Positions 91 through 62,880 of a stretch of DNA of 64,000 nucleotides are shown piece by piece. The stretch covers positions 45,947,293-46,011,292 of the forward strand of contig OZ024927.1 in assembly GCA_964017235.1 (NCBI GenBank), in the 5' to 3' direction. Within the stretch, counting starts at the first letter, position 1, and each line of letters opens with the position of its first letter. The stretch is from Sabellastarte sp. h YS-2021. Its lineage: Eukaryota > Annelida > Polychaeta > Sabellida > Sabellidae. Under the pieces are notes generated by a model that was given only the letters and a program-made list of their open reading frames with translations, was not told the origin of the DNA and ran no database searches. A program made the position numbers and the translations under genes.

Positions 91-1715
91 TTAATAATTT
101 TTAATGCATTAAAATTCATGAAATCATGCACTAAATCACTTATAACTTCAAAAGTGTTGCATTTACAGCATTTTGTGAAAATATGTTGTTCAGCTACTTT
201 TTTCATAGCTACAATATGGTGAGTAAGTTGGGTGTCTGTCTCAATAGCTAAGTGAGTAATAGCTACTTTTGGGCTTTTCAGTAACTTCCATTATGAGTAA
301 AATCACTTGTAACTTAAAAACTATTGCATTTAGAGAATTTCGTATAAATATGTTATTCAGCTACTTTTGGGCCAGCTATAACATAGTGAAATTTCAGACC
401 TGTAGCTCATGGCATAGCTGAGTAATAGCTACTTTTAGGTTATCACTGTTGAGTAAATCGCTTGTAACTTGAAAACTATTGCATTTAGAGAATTTCGTAT
501 AAATATGTTATTCAGCTACTTTTGGGTCAGCTATAACATAGTAAAATTTCAGACCTGTAGCTCATGGCATAGCTGAGTAATAGCTACTTTTAGGTTATCA
601 CTGTTGAGTAAATCACTTATAACTTGAAAAGTGTTGCATTTAGGGCATTTTGTTAAAATATGTTATTCAGCTACTTTTTTCATAGCTACAATATGGTGAG
701 TAAGTTGGGTGTCTGTCTCAATAGCTAAGTGAGTAATAGCTACTTTTGGGCTTTTCAGTAACTTCCATCATGAGTAAAATCACTTGTAACTTAAAAACTA
801 TTGCATTTAGAGAATTTCGTATAAATATGTTATTCAGCTACTTTTGGGCCAGCTATAACATAGTAAAATTTCAGACCTGTAGCTCATGGCATAGCTGAGT
901 AATAGCTACTTTTAGGTTATCACTGTTGAGTAAATCACTTATAACTTGAAAACTATTGCATTTAGAGTATTTTGTTTCAATATGTTATTCACTTATTTTG
1001 GGGTCAGCTATAACATAGTGAAGTTTCAGACCTGTGGCTCATTTCATAGCTGAGTAATAGCTACTTTGAAGTTCTCACTGTTGAGTAAATCAGTTATAAT
1101 TGGAAAACTATTGCATTTACAGAAATTTGTGCAAATATGTTATTCAGCTACTTTGGGGTCAGCTATAACATAGTGAAATTATAGACCTATAGCTCATGGC
1201 ACAACTGAGCAATAGCTATTCTCAGGTACTGACTGTTGAGTAAATCAGCTATAACTTGAAAAATATTGCATTTGGAGTATTTTGTTAAAATATATTGTTC
1301 ACCTACTTTTGGGTGAGCTATAACATAGTGAAATTACAGACCTATAGCTCATGGCATAGCGGAGCAATAGCTATTTTCAGGTTCTCACTATTGAGTAAAT
1401 CAGTTGTAGCTTGAAAACTATTGCATTTACAGTAGTTTGCTTAAATATGTTGTTCACCTACTTTTGGGTTAGCTATAACATAGTAAAATTTCAGACATGT
1501 AGCTCATTGCATAGCTGAGTAATAGTTCCTTTGAGGTTCTCACTGTTGAGTAAATCAGTTGTAACTTGAAAACTATTACATTTAGAGTAATTTGTTAAAT
1601 ATGTTATTCACAGAATTTTTGGTCAGCTATAACATAGTGAAATTGCAGACCTCTATGTCATGGCATAGCTGAGCAATAGCTACTTTCAGGTTCTCACTGT
1701 TGAGTAAATCATTGT
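91..1715 (+). repeat. Tandem array A, about 10 units of about 155 bp
   Basis: The phrase GAGTAAATCACTTATAACTT recurs about every 152-162 bases (near 292, 450, 607, 769, 927, 1079, 1231, 1389, 1546 and 1701). Each unit also has CAGCTATAACATAGTGAAAT and CATAGCTGAGTAATAGCTAC. Units differ by roughly 5-20% by eye, so the array is not newly expanded. Array A recurs in both orientations across the window and is the insertion target of two DIRS elements. Confidence 0.93.
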
Positions 1716-1894
1716 ATCCACTGGATAGCCGCAGTGTGTAGAGAGAGATTTCACCATTACTGCTCTGATGAAAAAAAATATTATAGCTAGCTTTCTTAAG
1801 TTTGCAGTATATATTAATAACCATAAAATGTTGTCTGGGAATATTTTTGGCCTCATTTTGAGAAACAAGATGGCCGCCACAGGTGTTTTTTGTC
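1716..1894. other. Spacer between arrays A and C
   Basis: AT-rich spacer. It contains the words CAAGATGGCCGCC, typical of array B, near 1868, so it may include a degenerate array-B unit. No gene is seen. Confidence 0.5.
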
Positions 1895-2480
1895 AGTCAT
1901 GAAAAGTGCTTATATCTCCCTTATTATTGATCCTAGAGGTTTGGGATGATAAACCAACCTGTAGGAAATCATGGGGTGGGAATCTTTTGGTGTGGTCAGA
2001 TTTGACCTTCAATGACCCCTCCTTCAAGGTCAAACAAGGATAGCCAAACTTAAAAGTGCTTATAACTCGCTTATTATTGGTCCCAGAGGTTTGGGATGGT
2101 AAACAGACAGGAAATCATGGGCTGTGAATCTGTTGATATGGTCCGATTTGACCTTGGAACCCTCCTTCAAGGTCAAATGAGGATAGCGAAAATTGAAAGT
2201 GCCTACAACTCGCTTATTATTGGTGACAGAGATTTGGGATGGTAAACCATCCCATAGGAAATCATTGGCTCGGAATCTTTTGGTATGGTCAGATTTGACC
2301 TTTGGACCCCTCCTTCAAGGTCAAATGAGGACAGCCAAGCTTAAAAGTGCTTATAACTCATTTATAATTGGTCCTAGAGGTTTGGAATGGTAAACCATAG
2401 GAAATCATGGGCTGGGAATGTATTTGTGTGGTTAGATTTGACCTTGGACCCCTTCTTCAAGGTCGAACGAGGATATTGCA
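1895..2480 (+). repeat. Tandem array C, 4 units of about 147 bp
   Basis: The phrase AAAGTGCTTATAACTCGC, or a close variant, starts units near 1900, 2050, 2195 and 2342. Each unit continues with TTATTATTGGTCCCAGAGGT and later GACCTTGGACCCCTCCTTCA. A shorter relative lies at 61400-61660. In both places the array is followed by a similar hairpin-bearing end. Confidence 0.9.
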
Positions 2481-2860
2481 TTTGTAGTATTTCTTTAAAT
2501 ATGTTTTAACCTATTTTTTACACTTAAACAATTACCTTGTTATTTTCCTTCATAATACCATTTACAGGGCACAACTTTTTTATCCTTTTCTTCTGTCAGC
2601 TTCGGAATTTCTTTCGAACTTGCTGTTCAGTTACCATTTACTGTATTTCTGTACAGCCCTTTTCCTGATAATTATTCTGTCCTCTAATCACCTTCACAAA
2701 TCAAAAACACTCAGTCAGCTGACACAGTGCCCGTTCACGGGCACTCTCCTCTTGTTATCAAATAACTCATCTACTTTTGGGAGTAAATGCGAATTATCTC
2801 TTAAAAGTATTGCAGATAGCCAATTTTTCTCAAATAACTCATTCACCTACGCTTGGAAAA
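2481..2860 (+). repeat. Probable 3' end of an array-C-bearing element, with hairpin
   Basis: A perfect 7-bp stem with a 4-base loop lies at 2727-2744 (GTGCCCG / CGGGCAC), followed by CTCTCCTCTTGTT. The flanking sequence GCTGACACAG plus a similar but weaker hairpin and CTTGTT recurs at 61660-61700, again after array C. This looks like the 3' end of a small non-autonomous, Helitron-like element. The rest of the interval is AT-rich and shows nothing recognisable. Confidence 0.5.
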
Positions 2861-3550
2861 GCTTTCACACACGAAAATGAAAAATTTTGAATATCTCGGG
2901 GAAAAGCTATTTCTTCTCCTTTAATGCTCTGCGCGAGATACACACCGCGGCAGTGGTCTTGTTTTCAAAAATTTTTGTCTCACCAAAAATGGTGGCGATT
3001 TTGAATTTTCGAAGTTTTTGCAAAACACAAAAATGCTTATATCGCGAAAACTGTGCTAGATGGAGCGAATTCAACAAAATTTTTGACCTGCTGGATATCT
3101 CTGCAGAGTACCCATGCCAATTTTCAAAATATTTTTGTCTCACCAAATATAGCAGTCATTTTAAATTTTTTGCAAAAATTGCAAAACACAAAAATGTTTA
3201 TATCTTGAAAACCGTGCTAGATAGAGCAGACTGCCCTGACTTTGGTTGCCACAACAGTATAAGGCTAGAAACGGAACATTTTCTTAATACTTTAGCACTC
3301 ACCTTTATATCCTTTTCGGGACACTTTGTTTTTGCTATGCAAAAACATTATCTTTTTTTTTGCGAGCGATCCTCTAGTCTAAATTTTCTGTCATCAAAAT
3401 TATCATTTATTTCTAAAATTCTGAAGCGATCGAGTGAGTTAAAACAGATTTTGGAATCTCTGGGTAGTAAAGATAATTTATTTAAAGTCTCTAGAAAATT
3501 TTGAATTTTGGTGGAAATTGGGAATGCCTTTCTGTGTATTAATTTCAAAA
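2861..3550 (+). repeat. Degenerate array-B-like units with an embedded element 3' end
   Basis: Two or three diverged units share AAAAATGCTTATATCGCGAA-type words, with CTCACCAAAAATGG between them. At 2931-2963 the sequence matches the 3' end of the element ending at 60340 (half-palindrome, short hairpin, CAGTGGTCTTGTT). Long open frames on both strands follow the repeat units and are not taken as genes. Confidence 0.6.
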
Positions 3551-3999
3551 ACTAAGACCCATAACCTTGAAATTTGCAAATCCAATAACCTTATGTTGGA
3601 ATGTTCCTAACAGTAGCTATTTGGTGGAGCCATTCAACTCAATGGCTAACGCAAAGGTGCGAAGGTTATACAATAACCTTAACCAGGCTATTGAGGAACA
3701 GTAGTCTGTCCTCCCGTCATTAGGGTCACATGACCACATGGTTTACTTCATTTTTTTTTTTTGTTGTTGCAAGAATGACTTGCGGGGAGGTGGGAGGGAA
3801 TCCATGAGTTAGGAAATGGTATGCATTTCTAATAACAAGCAATCAATGCCTGTGAACAGGCTCTGTGTCCGCTCCCTGTGTGTTTTGAGTTTCAGAGTAG
3901 AAGTGAAAGGTTACAAAGGTTGTGCCCTGCAAATGGTATTCACAAGTAAAGTACAAAGTTAGCTGTTAAAGTGTAAATTTTGGTGGAAAACATATTTAA
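3551..3999. other. Unclassified spacer
   Basis: No gene is seen. A stretch near 3921-3945 is the reverse complement of 2556-2580 (core CAGGGCACAAC plus about 10 more bases), so the two may mark an inverted pair about 1.4 kb apart. A short self-complementary word, AAGGTTATACAATAACCTT, lies near 3663. Confidence 0.4.
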
Positions 4000-4702
4000 T
4001 CAAAATACTGTAAATGCAATAGTTTTCAAGTTACAAGTGATTTAATCAACAGTGATAATCTCCAATTAGCTTTTGCTCAGCTTTGTACTGAACTACAGGT
4101 CTGCTATTTTACTATGTTATAGCTTAGCGAAAAGTAGGTGAATCACATATTTAAAGCAAATACTGTAAATGAAAGAGTTTTCAAGATACAACTGATTTAC
4201 TCAACAGTGAGAACCTCAAAGTAGCTATTGATCATCAATGCTATGAGCTACAGGTCTGAAACTTTACTATGTTATAGCTGTTCAAAAAGTAGCCGAATAA
4301 CATATTTAAAAGAAATTCTCTAAGTGCAATAGTTTTCAAGTTACAATTGATTTACTCAACATTGGAAACCTGAAAGTAGCTACTGCTCCTGTATGCAATG
4401 AGCTGCCGGTTGGCAACTTTACTGTGTTATATCTGACCCAAAAATAACACATTTAAAAAATACTGTAAATGCCATAGTTTCAAGTTACAGCTAATTTGCT
4501 CAACTGTGATAACCTGAAAGAAGCTATTGCTCAGCTATGCTATGAGCTACAAGGTATACAATTGCATTATGTTATAACTGACTGAAAAGTAGATGAATAA
4601 CTCATTTAAACAAATACTGTAGAAGCAATAGTTTTTGAGTTACAACTGATTTACTCGACAGTGAGAACCTGGAAGTAGCTATTGTTTAGCTTTGCAATTA
4701 GC
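4000..4702 (-). repeat. Tandem array A, reverse orientation
   Basis: The array-A unit appears as its reverse complement (CAATAGTTTTCAAGTTACAA, then AGCTATTGCTCAGCTATGC) about every 150-160 bases. The last unit is interrupted by DIRS copy 1 and resumes at 11058, so this is the left part of one older array. Confidence 0.9.
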
Positions 4703-5081
4703 TTTTATTACGCTACAATAGCTTACCATGTGGGACTCAATGCTGTTCTCGGATGGCCACAAGGCATCATGGCCAACGTCTAAGAAAAATAGACATTTAT
4801 AGTTGGCCGTAGCCTCTAGTTGTCGTCACGTGATAACTTCTGACCAATCGCCCTACTTTCTCGTTGGCCACGAACTGGTAGCTGCTTGTAAATATACAGA
4901 CATTTTCATTTATTTCTCAGCTTTTACGTATTGTTGGAGGTTCTTTTTTGGTTATTTCTTTTATTATATAACATGGATCATTCTATAAAATTTTTATTTT
5001 GACAGGATAAGTATATTTCGCGTGTTTTGAGTTTTCCTCGGTTCAGGCCTTTTATTTTCTACGTCTTTTATTGCGTTTAAA

Positions 5082-18095: not shown

Positions 18096-18678
18096 ACTAG
18101 AGAAATGTTTTTGCTAACAAAAACTAAGCATCCCAAAAAGATTCAATGCAATATAATATATCGTAGAAAAGGTTTTTGAAAATAAAAACATGCAGCACTG
18201 AGAGAAAAAGTGAAAGTTAGAAGACAGTGTGGAAGTTTATGCATTAACATGAAAGAAAAATTTAAGCTTTATTTTGTTTTCTATGGTCATAAATTGCGAA
18301 AAGTTAATTGAATAAATGCTCAGGCTCAGAATGCATACAGCATCAATACTTATAATAGGTTGAAAGTTACACCATAAAACTACTTAATTAAAGAGTAACA
18401 GTGCTTTATAAATGCCATATATATATTTACATTTTAGAAAAAGGCATAGTAAAATTTGAGCCTTTAGAAAGGCAAGAAGTTTATGACACAATGCATCTAT
18501 CCCAATGAGTAAATAAAAGGTCAATGTTCCCACAAGCCTATTTATATCTTATGAATAATGCTCATTTCTATTTATATATAATTGCCAGTCTTTGATGAGT
18601 CCCCAGAGAATTAGTCCACTGGGTATATGCTGAATAGGGACAAAATCAATAGTTAATGTGTCTCCCCTAACAACCCCT
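18096..18678. other. AT-rich spacer
   Basis: About 580 bp of AT-rich sequence. No open frame, repeat unit or known element is recognised. Confidence 0.5.
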
Positions 18679-19475
18679 CTTTTATGACCCCCAGTTTGAG
18701 CCATAAGGGGGGGGGGGGGGGGGGGTCAGGGGATAAATCTGACCGACTATCTAGACTCTTCACATATGGTTTCCCACTACCTCTTAAAAAATTGTAAAGC
18801 TGTAAAACCAATAAAAAAGAAGATATGAGACAAAAACAGAAAAATTGATATTTTATTACCTCAGTTTGACTCATAAGAGGGGGTCAGAGGGCTAATCTGA
18901 CCAGCTACCTAGACTCTCCACGAATTCCAACTACCTGTTAATACATTCTAAAGCTGTAAAAGCAAAAATCCGAAGGACATATGAGTCAAAAACACAAAAT
19001 CGGCTATTTTATGACCCCAGTTTGACCCATAAGGGGGGTCAGGGGGTAAACATGGTCTGCTATCTAGACTCTTCACATAAGGTTCCCCAATACCTCTCAA
19101 TACATTCTGAAGCTGTAAAAGCACGAATGAAAGAGATACAAGGTAAAAACACAAAATCGGCTATTTTTGACCCCAGTTTGACCCATAAGGGAGGGTCAGG
19201 GGGTAAATCTGACCAGCTATCTATACTCTTCACATAAGCTTTCCCAATACCTCTTAATACATTCTAAAGCTGTAGAAGCAAGAATAAAGGAGATATAAGG
19301 CAAAAACACAAATTTGGCTATTTTATGACCCCTGTTTGACCCATAAGGGAGGGTCAGGGGGTGAATCTGACAGTCTATATAGACTTCACATAAGGTTTCC
19401 CAATAACTCTTAATACATTTTAAGCTGTAAAAGCAAGAATGAAGGAGATATAAGGCAAAAACACAAAATCGGTTA
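18679..19475 (+). repeat. Tandem array E, about 5 units of about 157 bp
   Basis: Units begin near TTTTATGACCCCAGTTTGAC and continue CCATAAGGGGGGTCAGGG, then TCTAGACTCTTCACATA and AGGAGATATAAGGCAAAA. A G-run of about 20 lies at 18708-18727. The array is interrupted by DIRS copy 3 and resumes at 25319. Relatives lie at 37270-37540 and 62470-62880. Confidence 0.9.
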
Positions 19476-19945
19476 TTTTATTGCGCTACAATAGCTTACC
19501 ATGTGGACTGAATGCTGTTCTCGGATGGCCGCAAGGCATCAGGCCAACGTCTAAGAAAAATAGACATTTATAGTTGGCTGTAGCCTCAAGTTGTCCTCTC
19601 GTGGTACACTACGAGATCTCTTCCTACTTTCTCGTTGGCCGCATGATTTAGTAGCCTCTGTCATTTACACAGATATTTTCATCTATTTCTCAGCACATAC
19701 GTACTGTTGGATGTTAATTTTTGGTCATTTCATGTATCATATATCCTAGATTATTCTGTAAAATTTCCATTTTGACAGAATAAGTATATTTTATTATTTT
19801 GGTGTTTTTTTAGTTTTCCTCGGTTCAGGCTTTCATCTACGTCTTTTTATTGCGTTTCAAGATGTCTGCCCACCAAACGAATAAAGATAAGCCTAGATCT
19901 AGTAAGTGTCGTCACTTTTGCTTCACGTTTGACACACATAATTAT

Positions 19946-21945: not shown

Positions 21946-21952
21946 TAATTAT

Positions 21953-23730: not shown

Positions 23731-23959
23731 CTCAGGGTTTCAGACCCTATCAAAATAAGCCCTTTCGTGGTCCCAACAACAAGAAAAGAGGCTCCTACAG
23801 GAAACGCCCCTATGGGGGCAACTCCTCACAAAGCAGTAACCAATCGTTTTCCTCAGGTAGGGGGACACCGAACTTCAGAGGCTCCAGGGGTCGTTTTCGA
23901 CCCCACAACAGGGGGCAAGGGCGTGGAAACCCTCCCCCAATGACTCCTTAAAATCCTCC

Positions 23960-27950: not shown

Positions 27951-30300
27951 AGGATTCCCTCTGAGGTGCCTTAATTATTTCTGGCACCTCAGAGGAGAAT
28001 CTTCCAGAATTGGATTCCTGGAATTCAGCCACATATGTAGATTCAGGTACTCCACGTTGTTGTGGAACCTGTTGGAATGCGGTTGTTTCAGTAGTGTCTC
28101 ACAGTGAGGGAGCTGTAGGGGTACATTGGTCAAGAGATCAACCAGATCCCAAAACCATGGCATCCCTGGCCACCCTTGGGCCAGTACAATCATCCTGCAT
28201 GGTTATGTTATTAGGCGGGTTGCGTGTAACCAACCCGCCTATTAGATTGATGTGTCTGACGTCCGTCTGTCCGTCAACATTTTCGTTTCCGGACTCTAAA
28301 CTCAAAAACGGTTTGTCCAATCGAATTCAAACTTAACAGGGAGATAGATCAACATCATAGCTAGGTTCCTTTCGAAATTGGTGTAATTCCGCCCGTTCGT
28401 TTGTCTGTGCGTCAAAATTTCTGTTTCCGGACTCTAACTCGAAAACGTTGTGTCCAATCGAATTCAAACTTGACAGGGAGATAGATCACCATCATAGCTA
28501 AGTTGCTTTTGAAATTGGTGTAATTCCATCCTTTCGTTTGTCCGTTTATAGCATAGATACAATTATGTAACCTAGATTACAAGTTTTACATTTCTTAGCA
28601 TGCCTAACACATTCACCTTAACTGGGTGACCTAACATTTCTTTCCTTGTTTCTGAATTTAATTACAGCAGTCGCTAACCTTATTGCTGCCTGCGCAACCC
28701 GCCTTTTGGGGCATCTTTGACCCTCTTGTTATTTTTTGAATTACTTGTGGCAGGATGGCTACTGGACAGAAGACATAGCCGTCTAGGCCTTCCAAACATA
28801 TATTTAATGCATCTATTTTCCAAGCCTTTTTGTCTGTGACAGGAGATACATAAATTGGAAGTTTGTGATTTAGATGAGTTGCAAACAGGTCTACCATTGG
28901 TGTGTACCAAACTCTGCAAATTTGGTTGAATATCTGTTGGTGAAGGGACCACTCTGTTTGTATGACCTTGTCCCTTCGTGATAGGAGTCTGCTATCACAT
29001 TTAGGGATCCAGGTACATGTCTTGCTCTTATCTGGATCCTTCTGGAATTTGTGAATGCCAGAATTCTCCAGATAAGAGCACACATTTCTATGGAATGTGT
29101 GCCTCCTTCTTTGTTCAGATAAGACACTACTGTGCTGTTGTCTGAACAGATGAGCACTCTTTGACTCTGTAAGTGCTCCTGAAGACCCTTTAAGGCCAGA
29201 ACAGCTTTTAGCTCCAGTACATTGATGTGAAGCGGAGATTCCTTGTTTGACCAGAGGCCACTTAACACTACATCGTTTAACGGAGCACCCCAGCCCTTTT
29301 GGGAGGCATCCGTGAATACCAGAGTATTGTGAACATGAGGATGGATAGGAGCACCTGCCATAAGGTTCTGTAGATCCTCCCACCATTTGAGATGTTTCAG
29401 AAAATTCCCTGTTACTGGCATCCTTTTGTCCAGTAAATAGGAAATTTCCAGTGTGACTTCAGGTACCACTGGAAAGGTCTCATGTGTAATATTCCTAGTG
29501 GTACTGTTTTTTTCTAAGGAAGCTAATGTCCCTATGAGCGACATGAGCTTTCATGGAGTCAAGACTAATGACTTTCTGATGGAAACAGTCTGATTTTTTA
29601 ACCGATCGAGCTTCTTTTGGGCTGGAAAGACTAGACCCCTCTGAAGATCGAAGTGATAGCCCAGAAAATCCAGTTTTTGCATGGGTACCAATTCCGACTT
29701 TTGAAAATTGATAAGCCAGCCTAGTTCTTGCACCAATTTTGCACCAAGTTTTGGGAATCTATGAGACATTGTTCTTTTGTGGGTGACCGAAGAAACCAGT
29801 CATCCAGATACTGGTGAATTCTGAGGTTCCTGGCTTGATCTATGAGTTTTACCTCTTTCACAATCTGAGTAAACTCTAGGGGAGCTGTTGCTACACCAAA
29901 AGAAAGTGCCCGAAATTGGAAAACCCCTTTTTTGGTTTGAAATCTCAGATACTTTTGAGATTGAGGGTGAATTGGAACATGAAAATAAGCATCTGTGAGG
30001 TCTATTGAGGTGACCCACTCCCCCTGTCAAATCGACTTCCTGATAGATTCAGCTGTTTCCATTTTGCAAGTTGGTACATAAAAATGACTGTTTAAAATAC
30101 TCAAATCTATTACTGGTCTCCACCTTTTCAAGGGTTTGGGTACTAGAAATAGTCTGCTGTAATATCCCAGAGTTGTGGGTTTCCTGACATGAACTATCAC
30201 CTTCTTTGTAAGCATGGCCTGAACTGTCTCGTGGAGGGCGCCATCTTTGTTTTTGTTGTGATATTCGCTCAAAATGAGTGGAATTTTTGACAATTTTGGA
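27951..30300 (-). pseudogene. DIRS copy 4 RT - RNase H region
   Basis: The minus strand shows LVPKPLKRWRPVIDLS near 30130, FTDASQKGWGAPL near 29290, LICSDNSTVVSYLNKEGGTH near 29130 and VDLFATHLNHKLPIYVSPV near 28870. A Helentron-like element lies inside (28205-28722). Fossil with many breaks. Confidence 0.85.
28205..28722 (+). mobile_element. Short Helentron/pearl-like non-autonomous element inside DIRS copy 4
   Basis: Starts with a stem-loop (TAGGCGGGTTG, 8-base loop, CAACCCGCCTA at 28212-28241). The core has two direct units of about 130 bp (28263-28540, array R type). A single copy of the second arm, CAACCCGCC, lies at 28695-28703. DIRS sequence resumes on both sides. The palindrome-core-half-palindrome plan is shared with 54772-57633 and 59021-60340. 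It carries no protein. Confidence 0.65.
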
Positions 30301-33057: not shown

Positions 33058-34385
33058 AAAATTTTAATTACTTAAATGTAGCTTTTATAAGCTACAAGCT
33101 TACCATGTGGGACTTAATGCTGTTCTCCGGTTGCCACACCCGGGGCCAACGTCTTAGAAAAAAAGATCGTTCTTGTTAGCCACCGGATATACTGGTAGTT
33201 GTCGTCACGTGATAACTTCTGACCAATCGCCCTACTTTCTCGTTGAAATTTTTTATTAAACCTACCCCTCAGCTGTAAACAGCGGGGAGGCAGGGTGGGA
33301 CTCTCCTAAGTCCCACATGGTAAGCTTGTAGCTTATAAAAGCTACATTTAAGTAATTAAAATTTTCAATTTTATTACGCTACAATAGCTTACCATGTGGG
33401 ACTTAATGCTGAATTCAACCGCCCGGTGGCGGGATTACAGCTGAGACTGGAAGATATGTCATTTTTTTCTAAGATTTGAATTAATATATACAGAATAGTG
33501 CCAGAAATACCAGTCTGAGTCCCTTTTACAGAGCCCCGATCCCAAAGATCGGGCCTGTAACAAGCCAAAAAACCCTAAGTAAAAAGGGACAGTGCTAAAA
33601 CTGCCCAGATGTTTGGTAGTAGGACGGAAGTGCAGCGGTGCTCACTTCAAGGTCTAAGGGTCCCTAGTAGACCTTCACGTGTGACTGACCAACCCAGTGG
33701 TTGGGCATCTCATGAAATTTTTAACCTGAAATATGAGATTAACGACAACTGAATAAGTCCTTAATAGAAATTACCTGATAATTAAAAAATAAAATGACCT
33801 TTGTTTCACAGATGGAGTGGAGAAATCCACCAAATTTTCTCTGCACCATATTTCAAATAGGGCCCACTTTGACCTGTAGATGGTCCTTGTTAATGACCGC
33901 TGAGGGGCAGCAATTCTCTCTGCCACCTCCACAGAGAAGCCTTGTTCTTGGAGTTGTCCGCTCCTAGACACCAGGCGTGGAGGTTCAGCTGTTGTGGATT
34001 GTTGTGGAACACATAGTTGTGGGACTGTTTGAGTAGGGTCGTTGACACTGGGAGTTGTACTGGGATCTCTGTTGAGAGCTGCACTAGGTCCCAAAACCAG
34101 GGCATCCCTGGCCAGCCTGGGGCTATCACGATGATCAGGCAATGGCATTGCTTGATCTTTTGGATCACCTTGTGAAGGAGAGCCGTAGGAGGGTAGGCGT
34201 AGGCCGTGAGGTTGGTCCAGTTTATGTTCAGAGCATCTATGTTCCAGGCCCTTGGGTCTGGGATAGGAGACACATATAGAGGGAGTTTGTGATTCAGGTG
34301 AGTGGCGAATAAGTCTACATGAGGGGTGAACCACTTCCGGCAGATTTGCTTGAAGACCTGAGGGTGCAGAGACCATTCTGTTGAT
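33058..34385 (-). mobile_element. DIRS-type retrotransposon remnant, copy 6 (family I)
   Basis: From the left: a complete ICR (33058-33365), right inverted repeat starting TTTTATTACGCTACAATAGC at 33369, 3' untranslated sequence, and the linker region after RNase H (VDLFATHLNHKLPLYVSPI). It matches copy 1. The parts further upstream are absent; array B starts at 34386. Fossil with a few breaks. Confidence 0.9.
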
Positions 34386-34890
34386 CGCTCTATCTCACAC
34401 TGAGTCCAAGATAAATGCATTTTGTGTTTTATGCAGAAATTCAAGCTATCCGCCAAAAACTGGTGGTAAAACGATTTTTGGAAAAAAATGTCAGAGGACT
34501 GCAAATACTCCGGGGGTAAAAAAACTGCACCATTTCCGAGATAAAAGTGTTTTTTCATTTTTCGCAGATATTAAAGATGGTTGTCAAAAATGACGAGAAA
34601 AAGATTTTTGGCAAAAATTGGGAGATGACTCTGCTTATACCCTGGGGGTAAAAAATTTCGTCAAAATCACTGTCTCCTTACCGTTTCCAAGATGAATGAG
34701 TTTTTGCATTTGATGAAGAAATTCAAGATGGCCAGCAAAAATGGTGGAAAAACTATTTTTGGCAAAAATTGGCAGATGACTGCGTATTCCCTTGGGTAAA
34801 AAATTTCGTCGATTCGCTCTATCTCAAGCCGTTTTCGAGATACATGCGTTTTTGAGTTTTACGCAGAAATGCAAGATGGCAGAGACGCAG
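34386..34890 (+). repeat. Array B, about 3 diverged units
   Basis: Phrases such as GATCGCTCTATCTCACAC, TTCAAGATGGCCAGCAAAAA and CCTTGGGTAAAAAATTTCGT recur about every 155 bases. Diverged relative of 41.7-44.3 kb. Confidence 0.8.
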
Positions 34891-36588: not shown

Positions 36589-36812
36589 CTGAAAAAATAT
36601 ACAACAAATAGTCAATACACAGTGAGATTTGGGAAAATATAAGAAATAACTCAAAATATAACAAGTATACAAAACCCACCAGATGCTGTCAAATGTAACA
36701 ACTTTAATGTAGTTGAAAAAGGCGGAAATACTTAAATATCTTAATTCATGCTGGCGATGAACAATTGTACATGGATTTATGTTCTAGGGACATCAACAAA
36801 CCTTAAGACCCC

Positions 36813-36843
<31 letters not shown>

Positions 36844-41652: not shown

Positions 41653-41699
41653 CAAGTTTCGTTTTCTGCAAAACTGCAAGACGGGCGACAAAGGAAAGA

Positions 41700-44310
41700 G
41701 ATAAAAGTTGAAATTTTTCAATGTGACATATTATACATTTCTATGAACCTGTGGGTCAAAAATTTTGTCAAAAGTGCTCTATCTCTTGCGGTTTCTGAGA
41801 TACAAATATTTTGGATTTTCCGCCAAAAGTTGCAAAAATTGAAATTTTTTAATTTCACATAGAATACTTATCTACTACCCTGTGGGTCAAAAATTCTGTC
41901 GAAAACGCTCTGATGGTTTCTGAGATATTAACATTTTGGTTTTCCGTAAAAATCCAAGATGGTCTACAAAAGTGGCGAAAATTGAAATTTTTTTAATTCA
42001 CATATAATACTCTGTTAATAGCCTGTGGATCAAAAATTCTGTCGAAATCGCTCTATCTGTTACGGTTTCCGAGATATTAACCTTTTTTTTATTTTCCGCA
42101 AAACTCCAAGATGACTGCCAAAAGTGGCGAAAATAGAAATTTTTCAAATTCACATAGAATACTCCTCTACTACCATATGGGTTAAAAATTCAGTCGAAAT
42201 CGCTCTATCTCTTACGGTTTCCAAGATATTAACATTTTTGGGTTTTCCGCAAAAATCCAAGATGGCCGCCAAAAGTGGCGAAAAAATTGAAATTTTTCAA
42301 TTTTGTATAGGATACTTTGCTATCAACCTACGGGTCAAAAATTCTGTTAAAATCACTCTATCTCTTGCGGTTTCCGAGCAAAAATCCAAGATGGCCACCA
42401 AAAGTGGCGAAATTGAAATTTTTCAATTTCACATAGAATACTCTCTCCATACCCTGTGGGTCAAAAATTCTGTCGAAATCGCTCTATCTCTTACGGTTTC
42501 CGAGATATTAACATTTTTTGTTTTTCCGCAAAAATTCAAGATGGCCACCAAAAGTGGCGAAATTGAAATTTTTCAATTGCACATAGAATACTCTACCACT
42601 ACCATGCGAGTCAAAATTTCTGTGGAAATGGCTCTATCTCTTATGGTTTCCGAGATATTAACATTTTTTTGTTTTTCCGCAAAAATTCAAGATGGCCGCC
42701 AAAAGTGGCGAAAATTGAACTTTTTCAATTTTGTATGGAATACTTTCCTACTACCCTATGGGTCAAAAATTCTGTCAAAATCGCTCTATCTCTTACGGTT
42801 TCTGAGATATTAAGATTTTTTTGTTTTTCGCAAAAATTCAAGATGGCCACCAGAAGTGGCGAAAATTGAAATTTTTCAATTTTGTATAGAATACCTTGCT
42901 ACTACCCTATGGGTCAAAAATTCTGTCGAAATCGCTCTATCTCTTACGGTTTCTGAGATATTAATATTTTTTGTTTTTCGCAAAAATTCCAGATGGCCGC
43001 CAAAAGTGGCGAAAATTGAATTTTTTCAATTTCACATAGAATACTCTGCTACAACCCTATGGGTCAAAAATTCTGTCGAAATTGCTCTATCTCTTACGGT
43101 TTCCAAGATATTAACATTTTTTGTTTTTCCGCAAAAAATTCAAGATGGCCGCCAAAAGTGGCGAAAATTGAAATTTTTCAATTTTGTATAGAATACTTTC
43201 CTACTACCGTACGAGTCAAAAATTCTGTCCAAATCGCTCTATCTCTTACGGTTTCTGAGATATTAAGATTTTTTTCATTTTTCGCAAAAATTCAAGATGG
43301 CCGCCAAAAGTGGCGAAAATTGAAATTTTTCAATTTTGTATAGAATACTTTGCTACTACCCTATGGGTCAAAAATTCTGTCGAAATCGCTCTATCTCTTA
43401 CGGTTTCTGAGATATTAATATTTTTTGTTTTTCGCAAAAATTCCAGATGGCCGCCAAAAGTGGCGAAAATTGAATTTTTTTCAATTTCACATAAAATACT
43501 CTGCTACAACCCTATGGGTCAAAAATTCTGTCGAAATTGCTCTATCTCTTACGGTTTCCAAGATATTAACATTTTTTGTTTTTCCGCAAAAATTCAAGAT
43601 GGCCGTCAAAAGTGGCGAAAATTGAAATTTTTCAATTTTGTATAGAATACTTTCCTACTACCGTACGAGTCAAAAATTCTGTCCAAATCGCTCTATCTCT
43701 TACGGTTTCTGAGATATTAAGATTTTTTTCATTTTTTGCAAAAATTCAAGATGGCCGCCAAAAGTGGCGAAAATTGAAATTCTTCAATTTTGTATAGAAT
43801 ACTTTCCTACTACCCTATGGGTCAAAAATTCTGTCCAAATCGCTCTATCTCTTACGGTTTCTGAGATATTAAGATTTTTTCGCTTTTCGCAAAAATTCAA
43901 GATGGCCGCCAAAAGTGGCGAAAATTGAATTTTTTTAATTTTGTACAGAATACTTTTCTACTACCCTGTGAGTCAAAAATTCTGTCCAAATCGCTCTATC
44001 TCTTACGGTTTCTGAGATATTAAGATTTTTTCGTTTTTCGCAAAAATTCAAGATGGCCGCCAAAAGTGGCGAAAATTGAAAATTTTCAATTTGGTACAGA
44101 ATACTCTTCTACTACCCTGTGAGTCAAAAATTGTGTCGAAATCGCTCTATCTCTTACGGTTTCCGAGATATTAAGATTCTTTCATTTCTCGCAAAAAATT
44201 AAGATCGCCGCCAAAAGTGGCGAAAATTGAAATTTTTTAAAATTTTGTATAGAATACTTTTCTACTACCCTGTGGGTCAAAAATTCTGTCTAAATCGCTC
44301 TATCTCTTAC
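41700..44310 (+). repeat. Tandem array B, about 17 units of about 151 bp
   Basis: Units repeat CAAGATGGCCGCCAAAAGTG, then GCGAAAATTGAAATTTTTCA, GGGTCAAAAATTCTGTCGAA and ATCGCTCTATCTCTTACGG. Start points from 42258 are about 147-157 bp apart. Sequence similarity rises toward the right half. Six or more overlapping open frames (up to 229 codons) cross unit borders and simply reflect units that lack stops. The right edge is cut sharply at TCTATCTCTTAC where array K starts. Confidence 0.95.
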
Positions 44311-54766: not shown

Positions 54767-54839
54767 GAATTATGTCCACCCCGCTGGGGGTGGACATATT
54801 ATTTTTGCTTTTTCCGGTGTCCACCGTCCATCACGCTTG

Positions 54840-55620
54840 GTTTCCGGTCATTTCAAGGGAAAGTATTTATCCTAACTTTACCAAATTTGGTATGGGTGTT
54901 TATTGGGTTAATAGCTTGCATGGGATTGCTTTTGGTGAAGATAGCTGTATAGCTAACTGATTAATAGCTACTTAGCTACTTTTGTGTACTTCTTTTGTTT
55001 CCGGGCATTTTAAAGAAACATATTTGACATATCTTTACCAAATTTGGTAGCAGCAATAGTTAGGTCAATAGCTTGCTTGGGATTGCTTTTAGTGATAATA
55101 GCTATATAACTGACTGAGTAATAGCTACTTAGAGTAGCTTTTTTATTTTAAGCATTTTAAAGGAAAAGTATTTCACCTATGTTCATAAAATTTGGGATGG
55201 AGGATTATTGGATCAGTAGCTTTCTTGGGATTGCTTTTGGTGATAATAGCTTTATACTTAACTGAGTAATAGCTACTGTGCTATATAGCTATTGTGCTAT
55301 TTTTAGTTGACTTTTTTCTGGACATTTTAATGAAACAATGTTTCTATCTTCACAAAAATTTATATGAAGGATAATCGAGTCAATAGTTTGGCCAGGATAG
55401 CTTTTGGTTGTGATAGCTTTGTAGCTATCTGAGTAATAGCTGCTTTGCTACTTTGAGCCTACTCTGAATTGCATTTCTGTTTTCACTCTTTTAAAAGAAA
55501 CAGACTTAACTCATCTTTGTAAAATTTGCTGTGAAGGTTTATAGGGTCAGTTACTTGCTTGGTATTGTTGTTGATGGTAATAGCTTTAACCTCCTCAGTA
55601 ATAGCTACATAGCAAAAAAC
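54840..55620 (+). repeat. Array A-like units (about 5) in the 54.8-57.6 kb element
   Basis: GATAGCT[TG]TATA and CTGAGTAATAGCTAC recur about every 130-150 bases, with TTTACCAAATTTGGTA between them. Related to array A through AGTAATAGCTAC but otherwise diverged. Confidence 0.75.
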
Positions 55621-57480
55621 ATAAATATGTCTATCTCCTAAACCGTGCAAGATAGAGCGATTTCGTCGAAATTTTCAACCCACAGGGTATCTAAGTAATG
55701 TACTCTTGACATTTTTCAAAAAAAATTTCCTCTCCCCAAAAATGGCGGCCATTTTGAATTTTCGAATTTTCGCCAAAAGTGCAAAAAGAGTAATTTGCTT
55801 CTATCACCGTAACCGTCCGAGATAGAGCGATTTCGTTGAAATTTTCGACCCACATGGTATCTAAGCAATGTAGTCTTGGCAATTTTCAAAAATTTTCCTA
55901 TTCCCAAAAATGACGGCCATTTTGAATTTTCGAATTTTCGCCACAAATGCAAAAACACTAATTTGCTTCTATCTCCTTAACCGTGCGAGATAGAGCAATT
56001 TCGTCGAAATTTTCAACTCGCAGGGTATTTCAACAATGTAATCTTGGCAATTTTCAAAAAAATTTCTTGGCGGTTAAGGCGGCCATTTCGAATTTTTTGC
56101 CAAAAATGCAAAAAGAGTTGGTTGTATGTTGATGGTAATAGCATTTTGTAAATTTCGAATTTTTGCCAAACCTGCAAAAACACAAATTTGCTGACCCACA
56201 GGGTATCTGAGCAAACTACTATTTGCAATTCTCAAAAAATTTTCCTCTCTTCAAAAATGGCGGCCATTTTGAATTTTCGAATTTTTGCCAAAAATGGCAA
56301 AACACAAATTTGCTTCTTTCTCCTTAACCATGCAAGATAGAGCGATTTCGTCGAAATATTCGACCCAAAGGGTATCTTAGCAAACTACTCTTTGCAATTT
56401 TCAAACAAAATTTCCTCTCCCTAATGAATTTTCGCCAAAAATAAAAAGCACAAATTTGCTTCTATCTCCTTAACCGTGCGAGATAGAGTGATTTTGTCGA
56501 AATTTTCGACCTCCAGGGTGTCCAGAGTGTACTGGTGACTTTTTACAAAAATGACATATCTGCCACTTTTGGCGGCCATCTTGAATTTCTGTGTGAAACA
56601 TTAAAAACACTTATCTCGGAAACGGTGCGTGATAGAGCGATTTCGACAAAATTTTTTGTCCCACAGGATATATGCAGTCTACTGGCGATTTTTTTTGCAA
56701 AATCGCTTTCCCGCCACTTTTGGCAGCCCTCTTGAATTTCTGCGTAAAGCACAAAAGCGCATTCATCTTGGAAACGGTGTGAGATAGAGCGATTTTGACA
56801 AAGTTTGGACCCGCAGGGTATCTGCAGAGTGTACTGGCGACATTTTGCAAAAATCACTTTCCCACCATTTTTTGGTGGCCATCTTGAATTTATGCGTAAA
56901 GCGCAAAACACATTTATCTGGCAAACCGTTCGAGATAGAGTGATTTCGACGAAATTTCTGACCTGCAGGTTATCTGCTGAGTCTACTGATGGCTTTTCAC
57001 AAAAATCACTTTCCCGTCATTTTTGGTGGCCATTTTGAATTTCTGCATAAAATGCAAAAACGCATTTATCTTGGGAACGAGATTTTGGCTACCACCTTGA
57101 ATTTTGGTGGAAATTGAAAATGTCATTTATCTCAAAAACTTTCAAAGATAAAGTGATTTCGAGCAGTGTTTGGACCCTTTGGGCAATAGAGACCTTAGAT
57201 ATAGTGCCTGTAAAAAAGTTGAATTTCCAGAATTTTGTCGGCCATCTTGAATTTTGGCGGAAATTGAAAATGTTGTTTATCTCGAAAACTGTAAGGGATA
57301 GAGCAATTTCAAGCTAATTTTTGACCATTTGGATATTAGAGATCTTTGGTATATTGCCTCTGAAAATGTCAAATTTCTCAAATTTCGCCCACCATCTTCA
57401 ATTTTATCGGAAATCGAAAATGTTGGTTATCTCAAAAAACGTAACAGAGTGATTTTTAGCAAATTATGAACCAATGCAAA
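55621..57480 (-). repeat. Array B, about 12 diverged units
   Basis: GAGATAGAGCGATTTCGTCG and GGCGGCCATTTTGAATTTTC recur about every 140-160 bases, in inverted orientation relative to 41.7-44.3 kb. Similarity is lower than in that array. Confidence 0.87.
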
Positions 57481-57635
57481 GGGGTATGAAGCCAAAATAA
57501 TTTACATGTCTACTAATAAATATTTAAGCATCATTGATATATTTTACAAATGAAACAGGGTCTTGTAAGACTACTGTACAATTGTTGCAAAATGTTCATG
57601 GGGTGGACATTACACATGATAATGTGTGTTCTTCT

Positions 57636-57769
57636 TTGCTATCCTGTTTCTTTTCATATGTTGCAGCTACTGTTAACAGGGCATCATATTTCTAGTTACT
57701 AGGTATTGTTTTCACCCATGGTGGGCGGGGGGGGGGGGGGGGGGGGGGGGGGCCTGTGGCGGGAAATAG
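57636..57769. repeat. Spacer with long G-run
   Basis: A G homopolymer of about 25-30 lies near 57724-57752 (one C interrupts its start). Its length may be unreliable. Confidence 0.85.
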
Positions 57770-58775
57770 TTTGTCCGGGCTGTATCTCAGAAACCGTAAG
57801 GTGTAGGAAGTTCATACTTGGCAGGGACATTGGTTGGGGGGTGTAGGTGTGTAACGTCATAGTCTGACCTTGATTTGACCTTGCCGTAGTGACCTTGAGT
57901 TTGAAAATCTTGTCCGGGCTATATCTCGCCAACCATAAGGTGTAGGAAGTTGATACTTGGCAGGGACATTAGTTAGGGGTTGTAGGTGTGCAACGTCATT
58001 GTCTGACCTTGATTTGACCTTTGACCTTGCCGTAGTGACCTTGACCTATAAAATCGGGCTATATCTCGGAAACTGTAAGGTGTAGGAAGTTGATATGTGG
58101 TGAGGACATTGGTTGGGGGTAGTAGGTGTGCAACATCATGGTGTCACCCTGATTTGACCTTTGACCTTGCCATAGTGAACTTGACCTATAAAACCTGGTC
58201 CGGGCTATATCTTGGAAACCGTAAGGTGTAGGAAGTTGATACTTGGTAGGGACATTGGTTAGGGGGTGTAGGTGTGCTACGTCATAGTGTGACCTTGATT
58301 TGACCTTTGCCGTAGTGACCTTGACCTATAAAATCTTGTCCAGGCTATATTTCGGAAACTGTAAGGTGTAGGAAGCTGATACTTGGTGAGGACGTTGGTT
58401 GGGGGTAGTAGGTGTGCAACATCATGGTGTCACCCTGATTTAACCTTTGACCTTGCCGTAGTGAACTTGACCTATAAAACCTGGCCCGGGCTATATCTTG
58501 GAAACCGTAAGGTGTAGGAAGTTGATACTTGGTAGGGACATTGGTTAGGGGGTGTAGGTGTGCTACGTCATAGTGTGAACTTGATTTGACCTTTGTCCTT
58601 GCTGTAGTGACCTTGACCTATAAAATCTTGTCCAGGCTATATCTCAGAGACTGTAAGGTGTAGGAAGTTTATACTTGGTAGGGACATTGGTTGAGGGTTT
58701 TAGGTGTGCCATGTCATGGTGTGACACTGATTGACCTTTGACCTTGCTGTATTGACCTTTAAAATCTTGTTGCAC
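57770..58775 (+). repeat. Tandem array D, 7 units of about 139-147 bp
   Basis: GTAAGGTGTAGGAAGTTGAT occurs near 57797, 57936, 58076, 58220, 58361, 58508 and 58653. Units also carry TGACCTTGATTTGACCTTTG and TTGACCTATAAAATCTTGTC. A relative lies at 61960-62440 and a single fragment at 27255-27350. Confidence 0.94.
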
Positions 58776-59020
58776 CTTTGGGTCTGTCTGTTGATGCAGA
58801 TTAAGCACTGTTAAAGTCATATTAGAATTCATTAAGAATTTCCTTTTGCAAGTTCCCATTGTAACAGATGGAATTTCATCAAGTGAGCCACAGGCTTTTC
58901 TCCAACACCACACATAAGCATTCATTCAATGTATTGCCACTTCTGTATGCATGGGTAATATTCAAAACATCCAAACCATAATTCGGCCATTTTTGGTTTA
59001 CTGATAAGTGCTGTCATTTT
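58776..59020. other. Spacer between array D and the next element
   Basis: Nothing recognised. Confidence 0.4.
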
Positions 59021-59184
59021 ATTATCTCCCGCCGGCGGGAGATTATAAAACGCATTCCGTGCGTGTGTTCGTGTGTTATTGAGTGTGTGTCACGCTTTTA
59101 TAAAGGGCTGTACATCACACTGGTTGTTTCTCCTTGGCCTTTTCAATGTTTTTTATGACCTTATTGCTTATGTCCTTTCATTTG

Positions 59185-59522
59185 ATGTATGTATGTATGT
59201 ATGTATGTATGTATTTATACTCAGCGCAATATCTCCATATACTACAGGACTCAAAGCGCTATTTAACCAATCCAACTGAACAGGTACAGCCCCAACTCAC
59301 AAGTAACTCACATTCCCCTAACTGGAAGATAGAGGCTCAAGGATGACCATTTATCAACGTCCTTGAGGTTCTTTAACCTGCCACTGGGGATAGGACCCAA
59401 TGACAGAGGACCGCCATTTTAAGTGGTCATCCGAGCCACTATGTATCTGCCTGTACCTGGGATTGAACCCACGTCCTCTGAGTTCCTAGACAAGTGTGTT
59501 ACCCGCTAGGCCACAGTGGCAG
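59185..59522 (-). mobile_element. tRNA-derived SINE 2, uninterrupted copy
   Basis: The minus strand has an A box (TGGCCTAGCGGG) and B box (GGGTTCAATCCC). The 3' part, GAGTCCTGTAGTATATGGAG then ATATTGCGCT, ends in a CATA-type microsatellite (TATG repeats at 59184-59213). It supplies the empty-site sequence for the MITE at 45306. The 3' end resembles the 3' end of the LINE at 19946. Confidence 0.88.
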
Positions 59523-59579
59523 TTGTCACTGTTTTGTTTTAGATGAATTCTAATATGACTGATGCTGTTATTTCACACC

Positions 59580-60300
59580 TAGGACCATAGCTAAGTGAGT
59601 AATAGCAATGGTGGCTACTTTGAGTAAAGTGCTCATAACTCCAAAACGACTGCATTTAGAGTGTTTCTGTAAAATACGTTGTTCAGCTACTTTCTCCATG
59701 CCTACAAGATGGTACCATTTTTAGGGTTCTATCTTCATAGCTAAGTGAGTAATAGCTATTTCCTGTTATTAACGATGAGCAAAATGAGTAAATTGATTTT
59801 GTCTTTGTAACTGTTACTTACAATATTGGTCTGAAATATGTTGTTCAACAACTCCTTCATGTACTATATCATGGTGAGGTGTCCAAGGTGTAGCACCATA
59901 GCTAACTGAGTAATAGCTATACTAAGTTTAACATTTGACCATTGAGCAAGTCACTTATAACTCAAAAACTATTGAATATAGAGGATTTTTGTCGAATATG
60001 CTGTTCACCTATCTTTTGGATATACTGTATTGTGAATTTTCACAGCTGTAACTCCATAGCTAACTGAGTAATAGCTACTTTGATGATAACCATAATGAGT
60101 AAATGGCTTATATCTTCAAAAGTATTGCAGCTACACAATTTTGTTCCAATATGTTGTTCAGCTACTATCTCCACAGCTACAACATGGTCACTAGTTTGGA
60201 AGTGTATCTCCATAGCTAAGTGAGTAATAGCTACTTTGTCAATTTTTAATGATAACCATATAGGAGTTTTGTCAAATATGTTGTTCACCTACTTTTTGAT
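59580..60300 (+). repeat. Array A units in the 59.0-60.3 kb element
   Basis: About 4.5 units with CATAGCTAAGTGAGTAATAG and CTCATAACTCCAAAACGACT-type words about every 150 bases. Confidence 0.87.
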
Positions 60301-60340
60301 GTAGTGCGGCGGGAGATCATACCACGGCAGTGGTCTTGTT

Positions 60341-60549
60341 ATTGAATTGTTTTGTTTTAATACTTCATCTTTACATACATTTCTTTAGATATTATTTTCT
60401 CTACTTAAGCATTATTTGGACCTTAATATAACTGACACTGCTCTGAAAGTATCTTGAACTTTGTACTGTTATACTACTTCTATATCTCATGGTGTTGAAA
60501 AATATTTCCCCAGGCTGTGGGGTACAGGCATCTCTGATGCTATTTTTTA
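60341..60549 (+). repeat. Module I (dispersed repeat)
   Basis: Matches the reverse complement of 26845-27060, and directly precedes array A here. Confidence 0.7.
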
Positions 60550-61400
60550 AAAATAATTTTAATGCATTAAACTTCATAAAATCAAGCACTAAATCACTTA
60601 TAACTTGAAAAGTATTGCATTTTAGAGCATTTTATCAAGATATATTGTTCAGCTACTAGCTGCAACATGGTGAGTAATTTGGGAGTCTATCCCAATAGCT
60701 AAGAAAGTAATAGTGAGTTTCTGACTTTTCAGTACCCTCCATAATGAGTAAAATCACGTATAACTTCAAAACACTTGCATATAGAGCATTTTTCTTCAAA
60801 TATGTCTGTTCAGCTACTTTTTCCATAGCTACACAATGGTTAGAACTTAAGAAGTCTGTCTCCATGGCTCATCGAGTAACATCTACTTTCACACTTTTCA
60901 GCAGGTACTTAATGAGCAAAGGGCTTGTAACTTCAAAAGTATTGCAGCTACTCAAATTATTTTGTGGGTGTTGTTATCTACTTTTTGATGAAGTGTAACA
61001 TATTGAATTTTCAAATATGTTGCTCAATATATAAGTGATTAATGGCTACTTTTATTCTGTCATAGTAATGACTTGCATATATCTTGAAAAGTAATAGATT
61101 TATAGCATATTCATGAAATGGATTGTCCAGATACTTTATCGCAGTAGCAAAGTAAGTAACAGCCACTTTCTCGTTTTTCAGCAGTTACCATAATAAGTAA
61201 ATGACTGATATCTTCAAAAGTATTGCAGCTGCATAATTTCTTTCAATGGTGTTGTTCATCAATTTTTTTGTGAACTATAACATTATTAAATTTCAATGTT
61301 GTCCCTCGGTGTATGAGTAAAGTTTCAGACTGATTTGTCAATGTATGAATAAGTGATAGATACTTAAATCCTCATACTTGCTCATGTTTTAGCAGTTTTA
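60550..61400 (+). repeat. Array A, about 5 diverged units
   Basis: Begins with the TTTTAATGCATTAAAC border, then repeats CACTTATAACTTGAAAAGTA and GAGTAATAGCTACTTT-type phrases. Confidence 0.85.
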
Positions 61401-61705
61401 ATGATGAATAAATGTCTTTTATATCCATTATTACTGATCCTAGAGGTTTGGGATATGAAGACCACTTATGGGAAGTCATGTGGCTTGCATATTTTGGTGA
61501 TATCAGAGTTGACCTTTGACCTTTCCATCAAAGTCAAATGTTGCTCTTGATTCTTTCAGTGCCCTGTATTTCCTTTATTGTTGGTTTGGTTTTGAAGACA
61601 GCTGATAAGAAAATATGTGCCCCGAATCTTTTGGTGGGTCTGAAGTTCAAAACACAAAGCTGACACAGGGCCCATTCATAGGCACTGGTTGCTTGTTTTA
61701 TATGG
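61401..61705 (+). repeat. Array C remnant with element 3' end
   Basis: ATTACTGATCCTAGAGGTTT and TTGACCTTTGACCT mark one or two array-C units, followed by GCTGACACAG, a weak hairpin and CTTGTT at 61660-61700, as at 2700-2755. Confidence 0.7.
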
Positions 61706-61959
61706 AGGAATCGTTTGTGTATGTTCTGTTATATTTTTATTTTTAAATTGCATTGTTGCGATTGCATCATAAAGAATGATGTAAATACTGGACATTTGAT
61801 CCTTGAAAAAACTTCAGGGAGGCCAATATTCCATCTCCACAAATTTGTGGGAAGCCAATTTCCTAGGAGGCCAGTTTCTAGTGAGCCAATTTTCTAAGAG
61901 GTCAGTTTCCCCATTTTGCAAATGACTTATCCATAAAACCTTGATTACACATGTAATAA
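61706..61959. repeat. Spacer with GGCC-type repeat fragment
   Basis: AGGCCAATATTCC, GAGGCCAGTTTC and AGCCAATTTTC recur within 61820-61910. This is an inverted relative of 53330-53430. Confidence 0.5.
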
Positions 61960-62440
61960 TGTGACCTTGATTTTACCTTTGACCTTGCCGTAGTGACCTT
62001 GAGTTGAGAAAAATCTTGTCCGGGCTATATTTCGGAAACCGTAAGGTCTAGGAAGTTGATACATTGTAGAGACATTGGATAGTGGGTGTAGGTGTGCAGC
62101 TTCATGGTGATACCTTGATTCGACCTTTGACCTGGCTGTAGGAAGTTGAAACTTTGTAGGGACATTGGTTAGGGAGTGTAGGTGTGCAACTTCATGAAGT
62201 GACCTTGATTCGACCTTTGACCTTGCCATAGTGACCTTGACCTTTAAAATCTTGTCCGGGCCATATCTCAGGTTAACCATAAGGTGTAGGAAGTTGAAAC
62301 TTGGGACATTGGTTGGGGGTTTGGGCATGCAATGTCATTGTGTGACCTTGATTTAACCTTTGCTGTAGTGACCTTGACCTTAAAATTCTTGTCCAGGCTA
62401 TATCTCTGAAACCGTAAGGAAACCATATACATTAAGTTTA
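61960..62440 (+). repeat. Array D, about 3 diverged units
   Basis: GACCTTGCCGTAGTGACCTT, GGCTATATTTCGGAAACCGT and TAGGAAGTTGA recur. Same family as 57770-58775. Confidence 0.87.
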
Positions 62441-62880
62441 AAAATTCACTTAGATCTACTCCCTGCTCCTCACTTGTGGGTTCAACTGGGGTCATAAAAT
62501 TGCAGATTTTGTGTTTTTGCCTTTTAGCTCCATTATTACTTCTGTTACAGCTTTTGAATGCATTAGGAGGTTATAGGAAACTATATACAGGGAGTTTAAA
62601 AAGCTGGTCATTTTTCCTCCGACTCCCCCTTATGGATCAACCTGGGGTCATAAAATTGAAGATTTTGTGTTTTTGGCCTTTATCTACTTTATTATTGTTT
62701 ATACAGCTTTTGAATGTATTAGGAGGTGATCATGTGCAGCAAGTCTAGAATGCCTGTAATATTTACACCGGCCCTCCTTTGTGGGTCAAATTGGGATCAT
62801 AAAGTCACAGTTTTTTTGGTTTTTTTTTGGTTATATCTCTTTTATTACCGCTTTTTTGCAATGTTAGGAAGTAGCTGATG
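62441..62880 (-). repeat. Array E, about 3 units, reverse orientation
   Basis: GGGGTCATAAAATTG and TTTGAATG[CT]ATTAGGAGGT recur about every 150 bases, the reverse complement of array E. Confidence 0.85.

Follow-up and report, generated by a model that had tools for sequence, protein, structure and literature searches.

In the Pacific oyster, the tandem arrays of Cg_HINE elements have short segments in common while the remainder of their units differs (PMC7492417), and the BIV160/Cg170 units of bivalves have two motifs in common despite their divergence (PMC5139131). Here we describe a similar situation in the annelid Sabellastarte sp. h YS-2021, in a stretch of 64,000 nucleotides (contig OZ024927.1, positions 45,947,293 to 46,011,292; hereafter the window) that is rich in arrays of 130-170 bp units and belongs to a genome of 1.786 Gb. 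Several otherwise different tandem-repeat families have one short DNA block in common, a word found in the arrays labelled A, B, Bp, C, D and R. We consider it probable, at roughly two chances in three, that an old lineage of transposon-borne repeat units of about 130-170 bp has its conserved core, some 30 bp long and roughly YTTATAWCTCGRAAACYRT..TAGAG, in this word.

As far as the available descriptions go, the likeness to Cg_HINE extends to two modules with subterminal inverted repeats (subTIRs), the left with an inverted copy and a microsatellite and the right with a subTIR and a palindrome, to T-rich targets, and to central arrays of units of about 140-180 bp that keep a fixed orientation to the element ends, two arrays being present in some elements; this is a comparison by description and not by sequence (PMC7492417). 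The BIV160/Cg170/Pearl repeats are alike in their divergent units of about 160 bp, often housed in Helitron-type elements, and in their conserved motifs, but they are described with two motifs where we find one, and it is again descriptions rather than motif letters that were compared (PMC5139131). Helentron-derived DINE-1/HINE elements are described with subTIRs, a 3' stem loop, a T-rich target, microsatellites and central repeats, like the elements reported below (PMC4067079). Satellite units with Box 1, as described, also have a short box common to otherwise differing units, although Box 1 is CENP-B-box-like and the present word is not. The core itself is a further case of the already known Helentron-borne repeats with conserved short motifs.

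An earlier note on this DNA had claimed one word for arrays A to E and R, and its examples were located as claimed. The exact places in the window are 938 for A (CTTATAACTTGAAAACTATT), 1909 for C (CTTATATCTCCCTTATTATT, claimed near 1907), 28432 for R (CTCTAACTCGAAAACGTTGTG), 56610 for B (CTTATCTCGGAAACGGTGCG) and 58059 for D (CTATATCTCGGAAACTGTAAG), and the form given for E (CTTATATCTCC) occurs twice on the minus strand, at 19289 and at 19444. A second segment that D and R were said to have at equal spacing was confirmed as well: ACTTGGCAGGGA in D (57816, 57955) and ACTTGACAGGGA in R (28468) both lie 36 bases past the start of the word, which in D is at 57919.

Statistical support comes from joint motif discovery with one consensus per superfamily and with place and strand left free, run as eight tests of 25 shuffles each. 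The word was the best shared motif, with an information content of 25.1-33.1 bits against shuffle means of 22.7-28.8, and the real value was reached by none of the 25 shuffles in seven of the eight tests; in the remaining one, with X, Bp, E, D and R at width 28, six of 25 shuffles reached it. Four tests combined A, C, D and R with B or Bp, and in each of these every member lay on the word and no shuffle was as good. When X and E were included (four tests), B or Bp, D and R fell on the word every time, and X did so twice, was placed on its reverse strand in a third test and lay elsewhere in the fourth. The alignment of consensus pairs that had been proposed as a check was weak overall, whereas joint discovery against shuffles succeeded for five superfamilies. 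Among 11 array consensuses aligned locally, 12 of 55 pairs had p<0.05 (300 shuffles, hence a floor of p=0.003), and many of these are relatives over the whole unit (A-X, C-E and the B types). Where such homology is lacking, the word drives the matches B-D (p=0.003) and B57-X64 (p=0.010), and the match between C and D is based on a different word, GATTTGACCTTTGACC.

Two distinct non-autonomous elements, whose anatomy is of the Helentron type (HINE/Pearl), contain the D and R arrays, respectively, as their middle parts; the earlier note had missed both this and the common orientation of neighbouring arrays. In each element the word points from the left end to the right end. The D element follows T-rich DNA and begins with ACCCCACAGCCCTTAAGGGCTGT.., after which come a GGGC-type microsatellite (by eye) and the units; its 5' subTIR has a nearby inverted copy (ACCCCACAGCCC..GGGCTGT), and the exact left end has 6,133 copies in the genome against 0 for the control. 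At the right end (..GGCTGTGGGGTACGGGCATCTCTGATGCTATTTTT) there are a 3' subTIR, GGCTGTGGGGT, a terminal hairpin, GCATCTCTGATGC, and TATTTTT, and the DNA outside the ends differs between copies. The window copy has a left module from 57702, without the terminal ACCCCACAGCC palindrome, and a right module from 58770, with GGCTGTGGGGT at 60513 and the hairpin and TATTTTT ending at 60547; a mostly-G run of 30 occupies 57723-57752 of the left module. The R element has a 5' subTIR, AGGCGGGTTGCG, at 28213 with an inverted copy (AGGCGGGTTGCG..CCCGCCT), a GTCC/GTCT-type microsatellite in the left module (by eye), a 3' subTIR, CGCAACCCGCCT, at 28693, and GGGGCATCTTTGACCCTC at 28708-28725, beyond which the DNA is T-rich; its terminal palindrome is weak by eye.

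Both elements therefore show the features that define HINEs, namely a 5' subTIR of about 11-13 bp with its inverted copy, a complementary 3' subTIR with a terminal palindrome, a left-module microsatellite and central tandem repeats. Runs of T stand at both ends in most of the D and R copies shown, judged by eye. At two loci (L072 and L079) an R-type left end is joined to a D-type right end, indicating that modules have been exchanged between elements, and at L076 a D-type right end follows R units. The Helitron/Helentron Rep domain PF14214 has 24 matches in the genome and none in 14 control genomes.

The word-bearing units are abundant. Exact-pattern counts, which are lower bounds and were controlled with the reversed pattern, gave at least 26,525 copies for A, 33,719 for B-Bp, 37,699 for C and 388 for R (0 reversed in each case), and at least 22,979 for the CTCGGAAACCGTWAG pattern (1 reversed), which represents mostly D and some B units. 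Core-bearing arrays occurred in three of eight random 10-kb stretches and made up 8.5 of 80 kb by family labels. One of these random stretches (L062, 1-9688) is nearly all a 376-bp satellite labelled as no core-bearing family.

The earlier note had left the choice between an old common unit and constraint on the word. Descent is favoured by the block of about 30 bp, by its equal polarity to the transposon ends in D and R, where such ends were found, and by the relatives over the whole unit (A-X, B-Bp and C-E), and special constraint is not, as conservation of the core is inconsistent. Ranked among the 20-bp windows within each family, the core stands at 0.97 in A, 0.79 in B, 0.66 in C, 0.65 in Bp, 0.54 in D, 0.40 in E, 0.39 in R and 0.12 in X; between whole-unit relatives it is at the top only in C-E (1.00), with 0.70 in A-X and 0.60 in B-Bp. 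Since the core is not consistently the best conserved part in either comparison, an old common unit is the preferred source. Under this reading, repeat units would have been housed as central arrays inside non-autonomous transposons, where they diverged, recombined and moved between elements until between families the core alone could still be recognised, and the A, B, C and E arrays would have entered the genome by the same route as D and R. The core may have lasted as an aid to the propagation of the elements, possibly as a binding site, on the transferred strand, for a host factor or for the rolling-circle protein; such a function is our suggestion.

Several observations weigh against descent from a transposon-borne unit. 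E was on the word in none of its four joint motif tests, so the E example of the earlier note is its weakest, and the word is common to A, B/Bp, C, D and R rather than to all the arrays first named. R had no significant pairwise match to any other array consensus. Conservation of the core within families is ordinary, A alone being high. HINE ends were not recognised for the A, B, C and E arrays in loci of about 3 kb each, in which no systematic search was made, and this sets these arrays apart from Cg_HINE as described (PMC7492417); the A arrays have in common only an AT-rich leader. Finally, whole-unit homology between the five superfamilies was not detectable, which leaves room for convergence.

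Under convergence or capture, repeats without common ancestry would each have been selected for a single functional binding word or have formed around it; the word might be a site for a host DNA-binding protein, an origin or a nucleosome signal. Between superfamilies nothing but the core is in common, as this reading expects: with the word masked, no second motif rose above shuffles (six tests on one strand, in which 3 to 28 of 40 shuffles reached the real value). The statement that the rest of the units is unrelated therefore holds between superfamilies but fails inside them, where A and X, the B types, and C and E are homologous over the whole unit. Across families the core window ranks at 1.00 in A-Bp and R-Bp and at 0.98 in A-C and Bp-D, a comparison biased towards this reading because the units had been pre-rotated on the core, but it ranks at just 0.28 in C-D and at 0.80 in D-R. 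The lack of a consistent excess of core conservation within families and the kindred letters beside the core (TAGAG, ACTTGnnAGGGA), which suggest descent, make convergence unlikely.

Much less probable, in our view, is a role of the word as a junction for recombination or cut-and-replace events by which one unit type takes the place of another, as proposed for conserved boxes in nematode satellites. One locus (L005) has a B-type core inside an A/F-type surround, and among 25 junction sites, judged by eye and without a formal test, three break at or beside the core (L093, A>C; L030, D>C; L051, F>B). The commonest break, however, which recurs at several Bp>X sites (L064, L084, L086/L087), is some 70-80 bp away from either core, and the bivalve study, in the part available, found no statistical link between motifs and junctions (PMC5139131).

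A structured RNA or DNA, each unit containing a self-cleaving ribozyme or a hairpin, is scarcely credible. TATCTC...GAGATA stems are possible in B-type cores (B55 and B57, p=0.02 with RNA parameters), but at p 0.05 eight of ten cores fold no better than shuffles with RNA parameters and all ten with DNA parameters; a hairpin with a compensating stem was rejected, as two B-type cores alone stand out. Rfam gave 11 weak matches in the window; all of them stay below the gathering score and outside the core-bearing arrays, and a hammerhead or other catalogued RNA is not supported there. The weakest proposal, a CENP-B-box-like centromere motif, starts from GGAAAC in the core, which we take to resemble part of that box, and is not supported, as the best match reaches 8-10 of the 17 positions and 3-5 of the 9 essential bases of the consensus, as do 20-95% of shuffles in the eight families.

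Taking array polarity as the strand of the word, we found that neighbouring arrays of different families have a common orientation across tens of kilobases. In loci L001-L093, which were mostly picked by word matches, 43 of 48 pairs of adjacent arrays that belong to different superfamilies and lie within 2 kb have the same orientation, and D agrees with non-D arrays in 21 of 23. At 54767-62880 of the window, neighbouring arrays of unrelated families lie on one strand by the core word. The distance series that follow are counted among the matches listed, using the first listed matches on one chromosome, with D matches that were possibly B units removed and with pairs that are not independent. 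Agreement across families was 13/14 below 2 kb, 40/48 at 2-10 kb, 106/132 at 10-30 kb, 266/338 at 30-100 kb, 523/896 at 100-300 kb and 1259/2799 at 0.3-1 Mb; the proportion is about 0.8 for distances of up to 100 kb and close to the chance value past 300 kb. D left ends agreed with A, B and C matches in 2/2, 9/10, 30/40, 65/96, 161/267 and 432/858 pairs over the same distance classes. When matches closer than 5 kb were collapsed, neighbours agreed in 66 of 87 and 43 of 56 cases, values that none of 5000 shuffles reached; collapsing at 20 kb in uncleaned lists gave 37 of 58 (119 of 5000 shuffles) and 27 of 40 (61 of 5000). R agreed with D in two D lists in 2/2 and 4/4 pairs within 100 kb and in 4/11 and 4/8 at 100-300 kb.

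For D elements alone agreement is lost beyond 30 kb: successive left ends have one orientation in 21 of 24 cases at 3-30 kb and in 12 of 21 at 30-100 kb, and a sparser list of D words gives 4/4 at 2-30 kb and 0/4 at 30-100 kb. This shorter range makes the domain size uncertain, and local duplication may inflate the agreement counts. At G000:C1:2390748-2413801 four B-type matches are spaced near-equally, at about 7.6-7.7 kb, perhaps by local tandem duplication. The available description of Cg_HINE reports integration in both orientations and mentions no orientation domains (PMC7492417).

We tentatively suggest, as a possibility that falls well short of probable, that the array word and the separate D insertions follow strand domains because rolling-circle elements enter one strand only, for example the lagging-strand template while it is single-stranded at replication forks, or DNA that transcription has opened. 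In a large genome, the word would then preserve a fossil trace of the direction of forks or of transcription. Bacterial IS200/IS605 elements insert into the lagging-strand template, and their orientation follows replication, according to the available part of that work (PMC5371812); for Helitrons, the literature matches listed, as far as available, contained no report of such orientation. Strand skew was considered as a cause of the domains and is weak in the flanks of the loci (TA skew 0.019 +- 0.012, positive in 20 of 32; GC skew -0.017 +- 0.021), with no asymmetry of oligo-T there (134 runs of at least 5 T, 143 of A), yet a T excess of 0.06-0.13 in six of seven oriented array-free stretches of the window allows a weak skew.

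Outside this genome, a 23-letter pattern was found in none of the contigs of other genomes, and one D stretch had no match among plasmids. One exact 15-mer each occurred in 19 viral stretches, none inside a tandem array, and these we take as chance. Six word strings sought in literature text returned no repeat-related titles among the matches listed; a 10-letter string matching in a cephalopod sex-typing paper is part of a quantitative PCR primer.

Coordinates of arrays and elements in the window (positions 1 to 64,000)
Feature	Positions	Strand	Remarks
Array A, 155 bp units	294..1716	+	core CTTRTAACTTGAAAACTATTG
Array C, 143-147 bp	1902..2475	+	core CTTATAWCTCSCTTATTATTGG
X-type piece (2752-2869) and Bp-type piece (2962-3227)	2752..3227	+	with TATCTTGAAAACCGTGCTAGATAGAGC
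Array A, split by retroelement with inverted ends	3989..4703	-	A units resume 11086-11661
Array E, 157 bp, split by related retroelement	18677..19481	-	E units resume 25316-25723; word form weak
R element, HINE anatomy	28213..28725 (end approximate)	+	R units 28265-28545
B-type units	34375..34860	-	
Array B, 151 bp	41657..44310	-	core TATCTCGGAAACCGTAAGAGATAGAGC
Array F, 148 bp, partly A-like	54851..55611	+	word not seen in consensus by eye
B/Bp-type arrays, units 168, 152 and 150 bp	55616..57448	+	
D element, HINE anatomy	57702..60547	+	interrupted about 59026-60333 by A-type and other repeats
Array D, 146 bp	57771..58770	+	core GCTATATCTCGGAAACCGTAAGGTGTAG
A-type units adjoining right end of D element	60590..61295	+	
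Second D-type array	61960..62419	+	
E-type units	62452..62855	+	

A set order (Bp>X, X>A, A>C) is frequent among the A, B, C and E arrays. The retroelement inside the A and E arrays (4703-11040 and 19481-25314, with a third copy at L060 around 6188) has inverted ends, ATTRCGCTACAATAGCTTACC..., is DIRS-like by eye and has reverse transcriptase domains in its open reading frames; further fragments of retroelement ends lie at 33040-33430. Aiming of this element at the core was ruled out, as the copies in the A array, the E array and L060 join at TTTT/ATTRCGC, away from the core. Of the 20 open reading frames in the window, four have reverse-transcriptase-type domains, one of them below the cut-off, and 16 gave nothing; the long reading frames of the loci are transposon-like by eye. 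CAAGATGGCCGCCAAA, which presumably resembles a YY1 site, also occurs in B-type units (41955-44200, 56568-57234), and TGACCTTTGACCT, in D units (58015-58732), resembles what we take to be a nuclear-receptor direct repeat. Near array B, three 114-bp copies that are 99% alike (44402-44743) probably form a young array, and a run of 25 C followed by 28 A lies at 36809-36861.

If the word marks a transposon-borne lineage, it connects families that a catalogue would otherwise list as satellites without any relation, and if it is needed for propagation, it would offer a testable handle on the spread of Helentron-borne arrays. Should the proposed entry into one strand be true, sequence alone would suffice to test how eukaryotic rolling-circle elements choose their target strand, as tens of thousands of copies bear a readable strand mark.

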